This document shows positions 754 through 6,315 of a stretch of DNA of 64,000 nt, in pieces. The stretch is from contig JACJIB010000007.1 in NCBI GenBank assembly GCA_014138645.1, forward strand, positions 340,930-404,929, read 5' to 3'. Under the pieces are notes generated by a model. The model made no database searches. It worked only from the letters and a program-made list of their open reading frames with translations, and was not told where the DNA came from. How positions within the stretch are numbered: the first letter of the stretch is position 1; each line of letters opens with the position of its first letter. This DNA is from Methylorubrum thiocyanatum (GTDB lineage: Bacteria; Pseudomonadota; Alphaproteobacteria; Rhizobiales; Beijerinckiaceae). A program made the position numbers and the translations under genes.

Positions 754-781
754 CATGGCGTTGTCGAGGTGTGCCGGAGCG

Positions 782-801
782 GGGTAGTTGGTCAGTTTGA
801 A
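782..801 (+). repeat. Left terminal inverted repeat of the element
   Basis: This 20-bp end matches the reverse complement of 4422-4441 with one mismatch at position 8. It is preceded by GGAGCG at 776-781. Confidence 0.75.
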
Positions 802-856
802 TTTTTGTCTCCCACGAGGCATGCGGTAGCATGGCGCGATTGATGCGGAGCTACCT

Positions 857-1507
857 ATGGGCATAATCCACGCCAACAAACGGAGCATCAGCTTCCGATT
901 GAACGATGCCCCACTTTCAAAACAAGGCAAGAAGCAGCGGCGGGAGGGCTTACTTAAATCAACCTCTGAAGAACTCAATAAAATACCATTTTTATTTTCG
1001 GACGATGTTGAGATTACTATCGAATTGTTTCTCCATGAACAAAATCGCTACGAAACCGACAGATCCGCTGACATAGATAACGTAGTAAAGCCGTTACTGG
1101 ATGTTATGACAGGCCCAAATGGCCTGATGATTGATGACAATCAGGTGCAAAGTATTCGTAATTTTTGGGTAGATACCGATGAGTCAGAGCATGCCATCGT
1201 CACAGTCAGCCCACTGCTGGAAGGCACAGTGCAAAAGGGCGGGCTTGTGTTCGTCAATATGTGGAAGCAGATGTATTTTCCACTGAATGAAAAGCTGCCG
1301 CCAAAGGCGGTAAGTTTGTTCCTTGACGCTCTAAGCGGTCATATAAAGACAAGAAACTATCTTGAGCAAAATGGAGCGGACTATAATACTCTAAGAAGAA
1401 TGCTCCCTATTCAGCGCTTGTTTCACAAAACTCGGATTACGGCATTTAATGTGAAAAGCTTCGACGAAATGCGCAATCTTTTCCCAACGACTAAACCGGA
1501 TGTCTAA
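857..1507 (+). CDS. RusA-like Holliday-junction endonuclease with C-terminal extension
   Basis: This 216-residue protein has the RusA core around residues 65-105: ADIDNVVKPLLDVM, then GLMIDDNQV. RusA enzymes use this D-x-D-N...K and later DD pattern to bind metal and cut four-way DNA junctions. Typical RusA proteins are about 120 residues. Here roughly 100 extra residues follow, with no recognised domain. The gene is AT-rich, unlike the GC-rich flanks, and is the first gene inside the left terminal repeat. A GGAG precedes the start at 857. The 3' end overlaps the convergent transposase by 17 bp, so the C-terminus may have been altered by the IS insertion. Phage RusA acts in recombination; a role for this protein inside a transposon is inferred only. 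Confidence 0.75.
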   Translation: MGIIHANKRSISFRLNDAPLSKQGKKQRREGLLKSTSEELNKIPFLFSDDVEITIELFLHEQNRYETDRSADIDNVVKPLLDVMTGPNGLMIDDNQVQSIRNFWVDTDESEHAIVTVSPLLEGTVQKGGLVFVNMWKQMYFPLNEKLPPKAVSLFLDALSGHIKTRNYLEQNGADYNTLRRMLPIQRLFHKTRITAFNVKSFDEMRNLFPTTKPDV

Positions 1508-2378
1508 CAGATTTCTTATAGGAGCCACGCTTCGCTGGCCCCGCATCTCTTGCCTCGACCAGCGCCACAATATCGCTGATTTCCCAAAGCCGGTCGGTGA
1601 TGCCCGCCGCCATCGCAGGGCTTACCCGCAGCTTCGCGTGGACTCGGACAAAGTTGTAATACATGAAGTGCAGCGCCACGGCGTAGGCGTGGTTCTCCAC
1701 CTTCTTAGAAAATGCGTTCGTGAGCCGGGTGAAGCGGCGCATGTGCATCCGCATCGTGAGGTTCTGGCGCTCCACGTAGGACGTGGAGACGTGCTCAGGA
1801 TCGGGCTGGCCTTCGATCTGACGCTTGATGGCGCCCGTGCAGATCGGCGGGCTGTAGCGGCCCTGTTTGGCCTCAGGAGCCGTGCCATAGGTCTTCTGTA
1901 GGACGGCGAAATCGATGTCCGCGCCGAACGCGCCCTCAACGGCTTCGAGGTACGGCTTGTGCCCATCGGACGTGAGCTGCACCCGGCCTTTCAGCCGATC
2001 CGCCACGTCGAGCATGAACGCGTTAGCGTACTCGGCGTCCCGGCCGCCGACGAGGTAGGCCAGCACGAGCTTGGTGTCGGCATCAATGGCCGTCCACGTC
2101 CACACGTCGCCAGCATCGTCCGGCGACGCCTTGGCGGTCGCTACGTTCTTCTGCTTGCAGTGGGTGAAGGCCCAAATCTCATCGACCTGCACCCGCTTCG
2201 CTTGAACGCCCCGAACGTGCTCGTCGTGGTAGGCGGCGCACGCTTTGCCAGCGTCCACGAGCAGCTTCGCAATCGTGTTCTTGCTGATGTCCGTCGTCCG
2301 CACCACCGCGCGGATCGACATGCCCTCACAGAGGAGGTGCAGGACGCGCGCACGGTCGGCCGAGGAGAGCTTGTTCAT
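1491..2378 (-). CDS. IS1-type DDE transposase
   Basis: This 295-residue protein has an N-terminal helix-turn-helix (MSIRAVVRTTDISKNTIAKLL) and a DDE catalytic core with VQVDEIWAF and WTAIDADTKLV. It matches what are usually annotated as IS1-family transposases in alphaproteobacteria. A strong GGAGGG lies just before ATG 2378. The last residues (KKSVRHPV) probably read into the IS end. Clear terminal repeats of the IS itself could not be fixed: an imperfect ACAGA-containing pairing exists near 1505 and 2410. The gene sits between the stop codons of two converging passenger genes, so the IS either inserted there or is the native transposase of the whole 782-4441 unit. Confidence 0.9.
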   Translation of the reverse strand: MNKLSSADRARVLHLLCEGMSIRAVVRTTDISKNTIAKLLVDAGKACAAYHDEHVRGVQAKRVQVDEIWAFTHCKQKNVATAKASPDDAGDVWTWTAIDADTKLVLAYLVGGRDAEYANAFMLDVADRLKGRVQLTSDGHKPYLEAVEGAFGADIDFAVLQKTYGTAPEAKQGRYSPPICTGAIKRQIEGQPDPEHVSTSYVERQNLTMRMHMRRFTRLTNAFSKKVENHAYAVALHFMYYNFVRVHAKLRVSPAMAAGITDRLWEISDIVALVEARDAGPAKRGSYKKSVRHPV

Positions 2379-2393
2379 GGCCCTCCTTCAATA

Positions 2394-2429
2394 TGACCCT
2401 TATGCTTGTCTGTCAAGCAGAATGGGTCA
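2394..2429. repeat. Imperfect palindrome at the junction of IS and passenger operon
   Basis: The arms TGACCC..TGCTTG and CAAGCA..GGGTCA pair around a 5-nt loop. The stop codon of the gene at 2413-2604 starts in the loop. There is no T-run after the stem, so it is not a convincing intrinsic terminator. It may be part of an IS end or a transcription-blocking hairpin at the end of the operon. Confidence 0.5.
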
Positions 2430-2604
2430 ATTTCCTTACCGCGCTTCGCAGCTCGTTGCGATGACGATCCATGACGCTTTTTGTTGCAAGCTCAGCGTCA
2501 AGCGACGCAGAGACGGACGGCTTGTCAAGAAATGTCTGCAGATCACGCGGAATTTCCACAGCATTCTCATCCTTAGTGCCCGTTTTGAGAAGCTTTGCCG
2601 TCAT
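2413..2604 (-). CDS. 63-aa protein, last gene of the Ntn-hydrolase operon
   Basis: This small charged protein (MTAKLLKTGTKDENAVEIP...) has no recognised domain. It starts 2 bp after the stop of the proteasome-like gene, so the two are very likely translationally coupled and functionally linked. Its base composition matches that gene. It ends in the palindrome next to the IS, so its C-terminus could have been changed by the insertion. Possible roles such as substrate, inhibitor or adaptor of the hydrolase are guesses. Confidence 0.6.
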   Translation of the reverse strand: MTAKLLKTGTKDENAVEIPRDLQTFLDKPSVSASLDAELATKSVMDRHRNELRSAVRKLTHSA

Positions 2605-2606
2605 TA

Positions 2607-3899
2607 CTAATTCTCCGCTTGTTTATATCTCCGCGCAAAGAACCGAGAGTTTAGCTCCGGCGGGAAATAGTGCTTCCTCTTTACCCAAACAAACCCCTCT
2701 GACTTTGATATAACGGCAACATCAACATCACCACCAACTGACTCTTGCTCCCTAGAAACCTTGCGCTTAAGCGAGGTAAGCTCAATGAGTGCACGGGCCA
2801 TATTGGCAAGCTCTTGTTTTGGCATGTGCCTAATCATATCGAAGATAGGCTTGGTGTACTCTTTTTGCTTGTACGCTTCGAGCTCCTTCAGCTGGTCGGC
2901 CTTGATTTTTTCTATAATTGACACAACGGCCGCCGGGAGGCCAGTGCCCGTTGAAGTGCTACCTGTGAATGCTGCAATAAGTTCCTCAGAAATCTGCTCA
3001 ATTGATTGTTTTATGATTTCCTGGCTAAACTCGTAGAGCTCCGGATCAATGCCGTGCATGAAGCGGTCGATCATATCACTTTGAGCAAATCCAAGAGCCT
3101 CAGCGTGGGGACCGCGGCGACCTACATCAACCGATGCCCCTTCTACGTACTTCAAATTGTTGCCGATTATTCCTTCCATTTCAAATCGTTCTAAGGACGG
3201 GCACCTTTCGTCGTCGCCAAACCCCGCAATAACGACGCCACTGCTGTAAGATGAAAGGTGCTCACACGATAAAGCCATAACCACTAACTTATGAAGAGCT
3301 TCCCTTGTTTTCTGACTTGGAACTATTCGATTAAAAAATAGCGACACAGCTCGATTTATCGAAGGGCCGTAATCAGCCTCAATCATTCCGATATACGCCT
3401 TGGAGGCGTAGGGCAATCTTTTCAAGACACCAAGTTCATCTGTTTTTTCTTTTATCACCCCCTGAGCTATAATATTATTTTTGCTCTTCAGGTACTTACC
3501 TTGGCGGTCTATCTCCTGATAAATTTTTTCATCGATTTTTTGGGTGAGCTCCTCAATGATATCAGCAGTAATCATGAGCACGATTTGATCTTTATCAGGC
3601 TTGTCTACCGGCACTTTCCCGGACAGGTATTTTATAAAGTCATCTTTATAATCGACTATCTTGGGAAAAGTGTCTGTACTCAACTGTCGTCGGTATTCTT
3701 TAATGATTGTCTCGAGGGGTAGGCCCATAAAATCAAGCCTGCCGTAAATCATTATTCCTACTGGAGCAGACTCATGTAGTTCAAATATCTTGCTGACGCT
3801 ATTGTAGATTTTTGCCGACGCACCTCTGCCAATTGTTACGGCGCTATCCGCAGCCAACGCGACAGCAGACTTATTTAAAACCGCAATTTCAGCTGTCAT
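2607..3899 (-). CDS. Proteasome-like N-terminal-threonine (Ntn) hydrolase
   Basis: This 430-residue protein begins M-T-A-E-I-A-V-L-N-K. Removing Met would expose Thr1. Asp17 follows in AADSAVTIG and a lysine in SKIFEL (36 from Thr1), which are the positions of the Thr1-Asp17-Lys33 triad of proteasome beta subunits and HslV, with a three-residue insertion. The next segment, APVGIMIYGRLDF, also fits that fold. The remaining ~300 residues are helical and charged and unlike HslV (about 175 aa). No ATPase partner is visible nearby. It overlaps the upstream gene by 11 bp and is followed 2 bp later by a 63-aa gene. It is AT-rich relative to its surroundings. The likely activity is a peptidase or amidohydrolase; the substrate is unknown. 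Confidence 0.6.
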   Translation of the reverse strand: MTAEIAVLNKSAVALAADSAVTIGRGASAKIYNSVSKIFELHESAPVGIMIYGRLDFMGLPLETIIKEYRRQLSTDTFPKIVDYKDDFIKYLSGKVPVDKPDKDQIVLMITADIIEELTQKIDEKIYQEIDRQGKYLKSKNNIIAQGVIKEKTDELGVLKRLPYASKAYIGMIEADYGPSINRAVSLFFNRIVPSQKTREALHKLVVMALSCEHLSSYSSGVVIAGFGDDERCPSLERFEMEGIIGNNLKYVEGASVDVGRRGPHAEALGFAQSDMIDRFMHGIDPELYEFSQEIIKQSIEQISEELIAAFTGSTSTGTGLPAAVVSIIEKIKADQLKELEAYKQKEYTKPIFDMIRHMPKQELANMARALIELTSLKRKVSREQESVGGDVDVAVISKSEGFVWVKRKHYFPPELNSRFFARRYKQAEN

Positions 3900-4134
3900 C
3901 TTTGCGCCACCTTGCGGCGGCGGCCTGACGAGCGATACGCGAGCGTTCTTCGGGCGATAGACTCTCAGCCCGCGCTCTTCCTCCCTTCAAGCCGCCGCTT
4001 CGTGCGAACTCGGTTGCGGGAGAGACTGGAACAGCATTCTCAGGTTGTCGAGTCGATTGTTCATCGCCCGTCACTGCATCCACGATGAACTTGGCGAGCT
4101 GGTTGGGATCGCGGGGACGCCTGGGAGTGGTCAT
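3889..4134 (-). CDS. 81-aa histone-H1-like/KGG-type basic protein
   Basis: The N-terminus (RPRDPNQLAKFIVDAVTG) and C-terminus (GGLKGGRARAESLSPEERSRIARQAAAARW) match a widespread bacterial small-protein family often labelled histone H1-like or KGG. These have conserved RxRDPNQLAK and basic GGLKGG motifs and probably bind nucleic acid; no member's role is certain. Its start overlaps the stop of the upstream gene in ATGA (4131-4134), and its stop overlaps the start of the Ntn hydrolase by 11 bp, so it is the second gene of the coupled operon. Confidence 0.7.
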   Translation of the reverse strand: MTTPRRPRDPNQLAKFIVDAVTGDEQSTRQPENAVPVSPATEFARSGGLKGGRARAESLSPEERSRIARQAAAARWRKDDS

Positions 4135-4364
4135 AGCAGCGCGTCCGGGTGACGGGTTTGGGTGCCGGCGAAATTGTAGGCGAGCTTGCAGCCCGTATGC
4201 GCAACGAGATGCCCAAAGTGCGGTTTGCCGCCGACGCCAGTCCAGGGCGCAACAGCCCCGTGGCAGGCTGGGCAGCGGAGGGGTACTCCGCTCAGCGACG
4301 TGGCTTCAGCCGGGCTGACTGGCGTCCAGGCTTCGCCCTGTTTTGCTTCGGCTTCCAGTATCAT
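4131..4364 (-). CDS. 77-aa CoiA-like zinc-binding protein
   Basis: The sequence CPACHGAVAP...FGHLVAHTGC gives a C-x2-C then H...H...C arrangement. It resembles the N-terminal zinc motif of CoiA-like competence proteins and of small phage proteins. At 77 residues it lacks any nuclease domain. It overlaps the next gene by ATGA, making it the first gene of the four-gene operon. It starts about 60 bp inside the right terminal repeat of the element, so the promoter must lie within or across that repeat. Confidence 0.6.
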   Translation of the reverse strand: MILEAEAKQGEAWTPVSPAEATSLSGVPLRCPACHGAVAPWTGVGGKPHFGHLVAHTGCKLAYNFAGTQTRHPDALL

Positions 4365-4421
4365 TCCCCGACCATGCCACGGGCACCCGCCGGGACCAAG
4401 GCCGGGTCAAGCGAGGCGGAT

Positions 4422-4441
4422 TTCAAACTGACCCACTACCC
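4422..4441 (-). repeat. Right terminal inverted repeat of the element
   Basis: This is the inverted partner of 782-801. It is followed directly by GGAGCG (4442-4447), matching the hexamer before the left end. Confidence 0.75.
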
Positions 4442-4556
4442 GGAGCGGCCTCCGGTCCCTCTTCGCGGGTGCGTGACGAGGGGTTTGCCATCCCGCATGC
4501 CGGGGAAGATCGCCCTCGAATCGGCGCGCCGCAAGGCCCGTGCATCTGGTCTGATG

Positions 4557-4595: not shown

Positions 4596-4622
4596 GGTCC
4601 CCGGCTAAGTGCTTGAGGGGAT

Positions 4623-4672
4623 TGGAGCGGGCGATCGGGATCGAACCGACGACATTCAGCTTGGGAAGCTGA
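4623..4672 (-). tRNA. 3' half of tRNA-Gly(CCC), attachment-site core
   Basis: On the minus strand this reads an anticodon stem-loop TCAGC-TTCCCAA-GCTGA (anticodon CCC), a variable loop, a T-arm with GGTTCGATCCC, and the acceptor strand ending CGCCCGCTCCA. The D-arm and 5' acceptor strand that should follow above 4672 are absent. This is therefore a tRNA fragment and not a working gene, as left by site-specific integration into the 3' end of a tRNA gene. The integrase starts about 150 bp away. By orientation the element interior lies to the right. Confidence 0.8.
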
Positions 4673-4790
4673 TAAGTCTACTTCGCGCCGCGCCGGCTGA
4701 TCTGTCTATCGTTAACCCTGGCCTTGATCGATATAGCCTTTTCCCGCCTCTCGGTAGCCCGCACCGTTGCGCCGCCCCCCAAAGCCGGGC

Positions 4791-4810
4791 GTGGTATCCC
4801 CGTGGTATCC
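4791..4810 (+). other. Putative integrase arm sites, right of the att core
   Basis: GTGGTATCC occurs at 4791-4799 and 4802-4810, again with an 11-bp period, just upstream of the integrase start. Together with the copies at 4557-4595 they flank the tRNA-derived core on both sides. Confidence 0.55.
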
Positions 4811-4824
4811 GGGCTGACGATCGA

Positions 4825-6315
4825 ATGGCGACGGCGAATTCCAGGGGCTCCTACGCGGCGCGCGAGCGGACCCGCCTCACCCAGCAGCACGTGGCGAAGG
4901 CCCGGCGCCTGATCGCCGGTGACGCTCTGCAGGGCCGCGGCCTCGACCTCGCCGACACCGAATGCCAGGGCCTCGTGCTGCGGGTGACGCGCCGGTCCGG
5001 GACCTGGCTCCTCAAGCACCGCGCCGGCACGGTCCGCCTCGGGGACATCGAGGCGCTGGCCGTCGACGCCGCGCGCGTGGCCGCCGACCGGGCCCGCCTC
5101 GCCCTGAAGGAGGGCCGGGACCCGAGCGTGGACGCGCGGGTGTTCGAGGCGGCGCAGGCCCGGGGCATGTCCATGGAGGACGCCCTCGACGCGGCCTATC
5201 CAGTCGAGGTCGAGGTCCAGTCCGACGAGGACCGGCTCCGGGACGGGCCCTGGCAGTGGGGCGACCTCATCGACCAGTTCCTCGCGGCGAAGCTCCCGAC
5301 CCTCAAGCCCCGCTGGTCGGCGCAGTTCGAGCGCCACTTGCTCCGGGCGGCGGAGGGCCCGCTGCGGCACCGGCTCGTCGCCTCGCTGGCACAGCGGGAC
5401 ATGCTGGCCGTGCGCGACCGCGTGGCGAAGGCGCGGACCCTGAGCGCCGCGGCCGACACGGTCGAAGCGGTGAAGGCGTGCCTCTCCTGGGGCAAGCGGT
5501 TCCACGGCCACCTCACCGGCCTGCGGGGCCATCCCTGGTGGCAGGACGAGCTTGAAGTCGAGTGGGCCTCCACGCCCCGGGACCGGACGCCGACCCTGGA
5601 GGAGCTCGGCCGCACGCTCGCCCTGGCGGAGCGGCACAAGGCGCTTGGCGCCACCGGCAAGGAGACGGCGCCCGGCATGCTCGCGGCGCTGTGGGCCGTC
5701 GTCCTGACCGGGCAGCGGGCCGGCGCCCTGACGGGCACGCTCCGGAAGACCGTGAGGCCGTGGCCGGAGCGGCCGGGCTGGGAGATCTGGTCGTGGACCG
5801 CGGCCGAGATGAAGGGCGGCCGCCCCCACGCGGTGCCGGTCCCGCCCGAGGCGCTGGCCGCCATTCGGCGTCACCGGACCGACCCGACGAGCCCCCACCT
5901 GTTCCCGAGCCGCCTGCCGGGCAAGAGCGTGACGCCCGTCGGCATGACGCAGTGGTTCGATCGGATGCAGGGGAAGGAGAAGGCGACCAAGGGCGGGGGA
6001 CGGACGGGGCGCCCGGCCGGCGACTTGTTCGCCCAGCACGACATCCGCCCGTGGACGCCCCATGACGTGCGCCGGACGCTCGCCGCCTATCTCGACATGG
6101 AGCGGCTCGGCGGGGCGGCGTCGGCCATCCTCGCGCACCGGCCGCCGTCGGTGAAGGGGGATCCCGGGCAGGAGCGCGAGCTCGCGCAGGCCATCACCTT
6201 GCGCCACTACATCCACTCGCAGCGCCTCGACCTCAAGGCGGAGGGGATGTCCGCCTGGGTCGCAGCGATCCTCGCCGCCTACGAGGCGGAGGCGGCCGCC
6301 CTGCATAGCTCGTGA
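4825..6315 (+). CDS. P4-type tyrosine integrase
   Basis: The 496-residue product starts at ATG 4825 (MATANSRGSYAARERTRL). The frame extends upstream only through the att site, which cannot be coding. The N-terminal part (LADTECQGLVLRVTRRSGTWLLKHR...VRLGDIEAL) is a DUF4102-like arm-binding domain. The catalytic part has the tyrosine-recombinase residues: Arg in LTGQRAGALTG, Lys in EMKGGRPHAVPVP, H-x-x-R in HDVRRTL, His in ILAHRPP and Tyr in LRHYIHSQ. It integrates and excises DNA at the tRNA-Gly fragment beside it. GC content and codon use match the 6.5-13.3 kb block, which I take to be its cargo. Confidence 0.92.
   Translation: MATANSRGSYAARERTRLTQQHVAKARRLIAGDALQGRGLDLADTECQGLVLRVTRRSGTWLLKHRAGTVRLGDIEALAVDAARVAADRARLALKEGRDPSVDARVFEAAQARGMSMEDALDAAYPVEVEVQSDEDRLRDGPWQWGDLIDQFLAAKLPTLKPRWSAQFERHLLRAAEGPLRHRLVASLAQRDMLAVRDRVAKARTLSAAADTVEAVKACLSWGKRFHGHLTGLRGHPWWQDELEVEWASTPRDRTPTLEELGRTLALAERHKALGATGKETAPGMLAALWAVVLTGQRAGALTGTLRKTVRPWPERPGWEIWSWTAAEMKGGRPHAVPVPPEALAAIRRHRTDPTSPHLFPSRLPGKSVTPVGMTQWFDRMQGKEKATKGGGRTGRPAGDLFAQHDIRPWTPHDVRRTLAAYLDMERLGGAASAILAHRPPSVKGDPGQERELAQAITLRHYIHSQRLDLKAEGMSAWVAAILAAYEAEAAALHSS

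Follow-up and report, generated by a model that had tools for sequence, protein, structure and literature searches.

The window analyzed here, a stretch of 64,000 bp from Methylorubrum thiocyanatum (GenBank assembly GCA_014138645.1, contig JACJIB010000007.1, positions 340,930 to 404,929), contains at positions 783–4440 a single IS1-like transposon of 3,658 bp that is bounded by inverted repeats and flanked by a perfect 8-bp target duplication. The element encodes six proteins (Table 1), including a proteasome-like N-terminal nucleophile (Ntn) hydrolase, a 63-residue protein encoded directly behind it, a basic protein with a KGG motif, and a transposase. The label 'IS1-like' is used because the transposase scores 62.9 bits against the NCBIfam IS1 equivalog model and does not reach the cut-off of 100. 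A previous reading of this DNA without database searches (the sequence-only reading) had recognized four genes joined in turn by an ATGA overlap, an 11-bp overlap, and a 2-bp gap, within a transposon-like unit devoid of an ATPase partner. All of this is present as described: the four open reading frames (ORFs) of 77, 81, 430, and 63 residues lie on the minus strand with these junctions (the ATGA overlap being 4 bp), the terminal inverted repeats (TIRs; 783–802 and 4421–4440) and the 8/8 identical duplication delimit the unit, and a Pfam scan detected no ATPase domain in any of the six proteins. A 34-bp gap separates the 63-residue gene from the transposase gene on the same strand. The GC (guanine plus cytosine) content is 61–63% for the KGG and transposase genes and 44–45% for the hydrolase and RusA-like genes, in a window of 68%.

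Table 1. Coordinates of the IS1-like transposon, its genes, and its target duplication in the window
Feature	Position	Strand	Remarks
Left target site duplication CGGAGCGG, 8 bp	775..782		8/8 identical to 4441–4448
Left terminal inverted repeat GGTAGTTGGTCAGTTTGAAT	783..802	+	2 mismatches to family TIR, which related elements share
RusA-like endonuclease, 216 aa, second cargo, 44% GC	857..1507	+	convergent to transposase; Pfam RusA 28.6 bits vs cut-off 22.8
IS1-like DDE transposase, 295 aa	1491..2378	-	Pfam DDE_Tnp_IS1 3.6e-8, 34.3 bits vs cut-off 24.1
Small partner gene, 63 aa	2413..2604	-	starts 2 bp past hydrolase stop; homologue in L002, E=5e-4
Proteasome-like Ntn hydrolase, 430 aa	2607..3899	-	probably PMI-4; Thr2, Asp18, Lys37
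KGG-motif basic protein, 81 aa	3889..4134	-	core gene of transposon family (36/38 elements)
Cys/His-rich CoiA_N-like protein, 77 aa, variable first gene	4131..4364	-	Pfam CoiA_N E=0.0028, below cut-off
Right terminal inverted repeat GGTAGTGGGTCAGTTTGAAA, minus-strand reading	4421..4440	-	0 mismatches to family TIR
Right target site duplication CGGAGCGG, 8 bp	4441..4448		8/8 identical to 775–782

The 430-residue protein is a proteasome-like Ntn hydrolase as judged from its modeled fold and its residues, and its activity is predicted. An AlphaFold2 model (predicted local distance difference test score, pLDDT, 91.3; predicted template modeling score 0.89) was compared with the PDB by Foldseek, and the best 50 of 358 matches at E≤10 were all proteasome or Anbu chains (best E 3.0e-5), in support of the proteasome-type enzyme proposed in the sequence-only reading. 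The template modeling (TM) score by target was ∼0.35–0.53 for these chains; the root-mean-square deviations are large (∼14–25 Å over gapped columns), and the fold match rests on the E-value, the probability, and the TM score by target. The best viral match was a phage protein named proteasome beta, and the model of a second homologue likewise matched proteasome and Anbu chains. Thr2, Asp18, and Lys37, which become Thr1, Asp17, and Lys36 upon removal of the initiator methionine and were correctly noted in the sequence-only reading, are invariant in all 75 non-redundant long homologues, as are E4, A16, S19, F39, M50, P61, G226, G228, and G283. The protein thus shares with the 20S proteasome β-subunit and HslV the Ntn fold, the Thr1/Asp17/Lys33 arrangement, and a GG..DVAVI..DG strand motif. 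It differs from them in having its lysine at position 36 rather than 33, in lacking a propeptide, in being encoded in an element without an ATPase gene, and in being ∼200 residues longer. The extra length had been taken for a large C-terminal extension; this was rejected, as the model places it in two helical insertions inside the fold, at residues ∼100–210 and 286–357 between strands.

Sequence comparisons alone recover this relationship faintly. A profile of 74 family members ranked Thermoplasma proteasome β first in the PDB (E=0.013, close to chance-like matches), with an alignment covering the threonine end and the GG.iDVAvI..dG end; a single-protein phmmer search of the PDB gave one chance-like match (E=0.52) and nothing meaningful. 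The Pfam Proteasome family (PF00227) was absent among matches of the window protein at E≤10 and was matched by 4 of the 74 family members at E≤0.1 (best 0.0012), and searches of Pfam, NCBIfam, and PADLOC with the hydrolase yielded nothing at cut-off or at a useful E-value. Given these weak PDB sequence matches, it is the models and the invariant residues that carry the fold assignment. The protein belongs to PHROG 5990 (E=1.4e-105, residues 1–423 against positions 1–426 of 427), a family whose function is listed as unknown.

The hydrolase most probably corresponds to PMI-4, one of 22 new proteasome-like groups described by Fuchs, Alva and Lupas (2021; PMC8665760), an assignment made by anatomy and spread. 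According to the sections of that paper drawn on here, PMI denotes Proteasome homolog with Multiple Insertions, PMI-4 is the most abundant PMI group and, with 501 sequences at nr90, ranks among the largest uncharacterized groups of proteasome-like proteins, and PMI-3 and PMI-4 have their long insertions at two sites, one following H1/H2 and one between H3 and H4. PMI-4 is further described there as having no propeptide and a broad spread including Euryarchaeota and phages, the latter being marked for PMI-4 only among the PMI groups. The window family shares the insertion sites, the missing propeptide, and the broad spread; the two helical insertions of the model agree with the PMI-4 anatomy, which PMI-3 has as well. 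In the same sections, neither a function-suggesting genomic context nor an AAA+ partner was reported; the present analysis contributes a transposon as carrier and a small gene as partner. The portion of PMC13022661 covered contains nothing on PMI-4, and the titles and abstract openings listed in searches of an open-access library gave nothing on PMI-4 function or on this transposon family. The protein family is known, and the partner gene, the transposon, and the cargo logic appear to be new as far as these searches show. Shorter relatives with open frames of 274–330 residues and proteasome-like N- and C-terminal motifs occur at four loci (L049, L050, L051, and L117) and possibly represent another PMI group.

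The hydrolase gene is accompanied by a small gene across the family. Of 72 homologues, 69 are followed by an ORF of 40–90 residues that begins no more than 25 nt from the hydrolase stop (ATG start in 66); for the remaining long ORFs at these loci the figure is 76 of 337 (ATG start in 45; Fisher p ∼3e-33); the limits of this test were set after a first viewing of the small ORFs, and 3 of the 75 homologues were left out as a contig end cuts the locus. In each of the four groups tested, related small ORFs differ preferentially at third codon positions. The gene is annotated in several records and unannotated in others, the plasmid tables being incomplete. Its sequences fall into clade-specific types, such as ELREWQKxFNP in enterobacterial prophages, and the type of the window is also found, besides L002, by eye in L064. 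The sequence-only reading had treated the four minus-strand genes as a functional operon, which was rejected: the KGG gene belongs to the element and accompanies the hydrolase inside the transposon family, the CoiA-like gene is not conserved (117 homologue loci gave a best E of 0.07 and nothing at E≤0.01), and the 63-residue gene alone tracks the hydrolase generally. The description of the first gene product as a CoiA-like zinc protein is a weak point: the protein is Cys/His-rich and CoiA_N-like, and its Pfam match (17.6 bits) falls short of the cut-off of 26.3.

The transposon belongs to a family with well-defined ends. A total of 39 loci were examined, of which 33 were reached via the transposase and five via the hydrolase, the window being the remaining one; TIR pairs were picked by the best joint score of duplication and TIR match. 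At 32 of them the TIRs are paired and flanked by an 8/8 duplication, at five (L156, L168, L176, L184, and L054) there are TIR-like ends without an 8-bp duplication, and at two (L178 and L186) no ends were resolved. Together with a further element (L198, 8/8 duplication), 38 elements entered the comparison. The consensus TIR is GGTAGTkGGTCAGTTTGAAw. L184 and L185 are outliers with poor TIRs (6/20 mismatches per end) and without the KGG gene. The DDE_Tnp_IS1 domain, the TIRs, and the 8-bp duplication resemble the IS1 family, the target duplications of which are 8–9 bp. The differences from that family and from insertion sequences with passenger genes are the one-frame transposase below the NCBIfam cut-off and the combination of a near-constant KGG gene with variable cargo. 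Of 298 genomes from the taxonomic family of the window, its own genome counted, 39 hold relatives of the transposase (E≤1e-60); 43 matches were listed, the window's among them, and the regions of 33 were examined. The window's genome has one copy each of the hydrolase and the transposase (E≤0.001). An empty insertion site, sought in this genome and 20 relatives, matched the window's own right flank only, and promoter and terminator scans showed no excess over shuffled sequence. Just outside the transposon, a tyrosine-integrase-like gene (4609–6315; PHROG 1, 1e-16) has its start beside what appears by eye to be a tRNA remnant (about 4621–4685), although an ARAGORN search of the window returned no tRNA; another element may begin at this place.

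Comparison of the elements separates a constant part from a changing one. The KGG gene, which encodes a small, basic protein near-constant in the transposon family, is usually close to the left TIR; DNA binding, transposition, and control of the cargo are candidate roles for it. In five elements a further KGG motif occurs as a fusion with a different cargo protein (a P63C domain was tested in one of these proteins, the rest being placed by similarity). Beside hydrolase homologues outside the transposon family, the KGG gene was seen at two loci only (L011 and L099); at L011 (3641–5113) its end motif, RWRK, continues in frame into the hydrolase start, MTAEI, so that a fused reading frame is possible. 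PMI-4 is the cargo of ten elements (the window, L002, L003, L012, L023, L054, L157, L162, L171, and L198). L002, L003, L012, L023, L054, and L198 were found by hydrolase search and take no part in an unbiased share, which is 3 of the 31 resolved elements found by transposase alone (L157, L162, and L171); the other 28 carry different cargo. Among the ten transposon-borne hydrolases, only that of L012 lacks a small ORF next to its stop codon; it has a long C-terminal tail instead. In a tree of 78 hydrolases the element-borne ones do not form one clade: there are 6 changes among the labelled rows, at least 5 of which are forced by supported branches, and 10 if every other row is taken as not element-borne. 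The different genes beside KGG and transposase, the scattered tree positions, and the GC contrast suggest that the cargo is exchanged rather than ancestral. The transposase and KGG genes therefore look like the shared core, and the hydrolase with its 63-residue partner, as well as the RusA-like gene, like exchangeable cargo.

The genes that occupy this slot in sister elements include known or suspected antiviral genes. When one main cargo protein per element was searched with PADLOC (E≤0.001), at least 9 of the 28 non-PMI-4 elements gave a match (at least 8 of 27 without the outlier L184), namely six PD-Lambda-2_B (two at ∼1e-43), one HEC-06, one HEC-04, and one BstA (3e-118); SoFic and PDC-S13 models were also matched among the 28 proteins. 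The count was made by family and member numbers, with the BstA match very likely distinct from the PD-Lambda-2 members, and is fairer than a scan of the first ten cargo proteins, which were hand-picked. In a control with the largest flanking protein of ten regions, one of ten had a PADLOC match, to a cyclase-domain protein. The PD-Lambda-2_B-like gene fills the slot of six elements together with a gene of 155–176 residues; its proteins are unrelated to the hydrolase, so that PD-Lambda-2 is a neighbour by slot and not a homologue. Other cargo comprises AAA proteins, SocA_Panacea, Bro-N, GmrSD, Schlafen AlbA_2, and several genes without annotation, and extra genes past the transposase encode FRG/PDC-S15 (L002), Abi_2/PD-T4-5 (L168), GNAT (L162), and, weakly, NYN (L183). 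ClpP-like SDH serine proteases stand in the slot of the hydrolase in L155, L166, and L181 (L166 below the Pfam cut-off) and a Nal1-like protease in L180; proteases may be over-represented among the cargo, a candidate pattern.

Relatives of the hydrolase are also found in prophages, Streptococcus satellites, and plasmids. Homologue loci number 52 in GTDB genomes and 65 in IMG/VR, with further homologues in 13 phage records, nine of them Streptococcus phages or satellites, and on 10 plasmids. In the order of the window's genome PMI-4 is rare (8 of 297 genomes, its own counted), and 9 of 5,426 E. coli genomes have a match over ≥80% of the query. No transposase of the window type was detected at 112 of 117 homologue loci, many of which are cut by contig ends. 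Satellite ends and the stretch from antiterminator Q to the lysis genes are typical accessory-gene positions. The hydrolase gene is close to the element end in two inspected Streptococcus satellites; in an E. coli prophage it stands beside the antiterminator Q gene on the strand opposite to its neighbours (holins to DUF968), and in Providencia phage PSTRCR_117lys between antiterminator Q and holin on the same strand. Among 113 neighbour proteins from 36 non-transposon loci, in a survey excluding ORFs of <110 and >600 residues, strong matches were found to Avs1a (1.7e-217), LmuA, NsnA, PD-T4-2_A, and a DRT component. At five rhizobial loci (L008:6374–9353, L009, L020, L190, and L192) the hydrolase gene is near ubiquitin-like conjugation genes. 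In L008, ThiF/E1-like and DUF6527-like genes are directly upstream with a gap of ∼35 bp; ThiF-like genes lie within 2.5 kb in L009 and L020, DUF6527 in L008 and L009 being assigned by eye. On two Rhizobium plasmids a multiubiquitin-ThiF-DUF6527-ClpP row starts ∼1.4 kb from the hydrolase gene.

The occurrence of the cargo pair in a slot of known or suspected antiviral genes suggests an unrecognised enzyme of immunity or of counteraction to selfish DNA. From this context it is somewhat probable that hydrolase and regulator form a mobile module that protects its carrier against phages or other elements; of the roles considered, defence has the best support, owing to the genes with which the hydrolase gene keeps company. 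The sequence-only reading had suggested defence or maintenance, and the defence-like context supports the former part. The hydrolase would be made without a propeptide, and removal of the methionine would expose Thr1, which with Asp17 and the following lysine would form a proteasome-type active site. By the argument of Fuchs et al., as given in the sections cited above, the two large helical insertions would lie at proteasome subunit interfaces; a standard double ring is unlikely, because the insertions would occupy the subunit contact sites. The 63-residue protein is most likely a trans-acting regulator, such as an assembly factor, a plug, or a substrate adaptor, and may replace the missing propeptide or ATPase by silencing or aiming the hydrolase. 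The module would then cleave a specific protein in a limited way, or ligate it, and so shield the transposon, prophage, satellite, plasmid, or cell that carries it from phages or competing elements. A bolder version, held as doubtful, is that KGG IS1-like transposons shuttle interchangeable anti-phage cassettes, one of them a new form of immunity in which an ATPase-free proteasome-like threonine hydrolase is restrained or directed by a tiny partner acting in place of the propeptide; where it neighbours ubiquitin-like conjugation genes, in some rhizobia, it would be a bacterial analogue of a ubiquitin-linked immune proteasome.

Several observations weigh against a protective module. Genes next to the homologues include housekeeping ones (chorismate synthase, ALAD, and others), and the survey of neighbours lacked a matched control. 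At E≤1 the hydrolase itself is matched by no PADLOC model. Partner sequences diverge strongly from group to group, so that a single shared role is an assumption, and an AlphaFold2 prediction of hydrolase and partner as one chain gave no confident docking, with pLDDT of 31–46 over most of the partner. The element-borne hydrolases also show some clustering on the tree, shuffled labels giving a value as low in 4 of 500 trials, and part of the sharing among elements is therefore by descent.

Other roles can be weighed against the same data. In a toxin-antitoxin or addiction system, the free hydrolase would be toxic, the small protein would neutralise it, loss of the element would kill the cell, and phage protection would be a side effect. 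The pairing with a tiny, fast-changing second gene and the toxin-antitoxin-like cargo of sister elements (SocA_Panacea and PD-Lambda-2) speak for such a system, which is nevertheless rather unlikely: the small gene comes second, and no DNA-binding domain was recognised in the small protein by Pfam scan. The two roles are compatible within one module. Toxin-antitoxin-like abortive defence is reported in the part of Vassallo et al. (2022; PMC9519451), the reference for PD-Lambda-2, drawn on here. Alternatively, the hydrolase could control movement by cleaving the transposase or repressors of elements and prophages. Its orientation and close spacing to the transposase gene, and the frequent location of homologues on mobile DNA, would fit; yet most sister elements carry other cargo and most homologue loci lack a detectable transposase of this type (many being cut by contig ends), so the hydrolase is not required for transposition and such a regulator is quite improbable.

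The case for a phage morphogenesis or lysis-region protease, acquired later by the transposon, draws on Porphyromonas phage022a, in which the hydrolase gene is located between head and neck genes on the strand of the phage genes, on the same-strand position between Q and holin in the Providencia phage, and on neighbours resembling terminase or tape measure by eye in L194 and L197. It is countered by the opposite orientation in the E. coli prophage, by transcription against the lysis genes in Stenotrophomonas phage BUCT708 and against tail and capsid genes on a Pantoea plasmid, by the position near the ends of the two satellites, and by the absence of virion genes from the transposon, and is very improbable. 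As to chemistry, the enzyme might be a protein ligase or amidase of the connectase type rather than a protease, with a narrow substrate choice set by its helical insertions. Connectase has the same active-site fold and, in the parts of PMC8665760 cited, acts as a ligase in monomeric form, with a helical insertion that shapes it; that insertion is at the S3/S4 site, where those of the hydrolase are not, and this possibility is given little chance.

For PMI-4 the 2021 survey, in the sections considered, gave no functional clue (PMC8665760); the genomic context described here supplies the group with a carrier, a gene that partners it, and a role open to testing. If the protective reading is true, a self-contained threonine protease would be added to the anti-phage arsenal, and KGG-bearing IS1-like elements would offer an inexpensive way to probe for defence genes not yet recognized, as anything between KGG and transposase would be a candidate.

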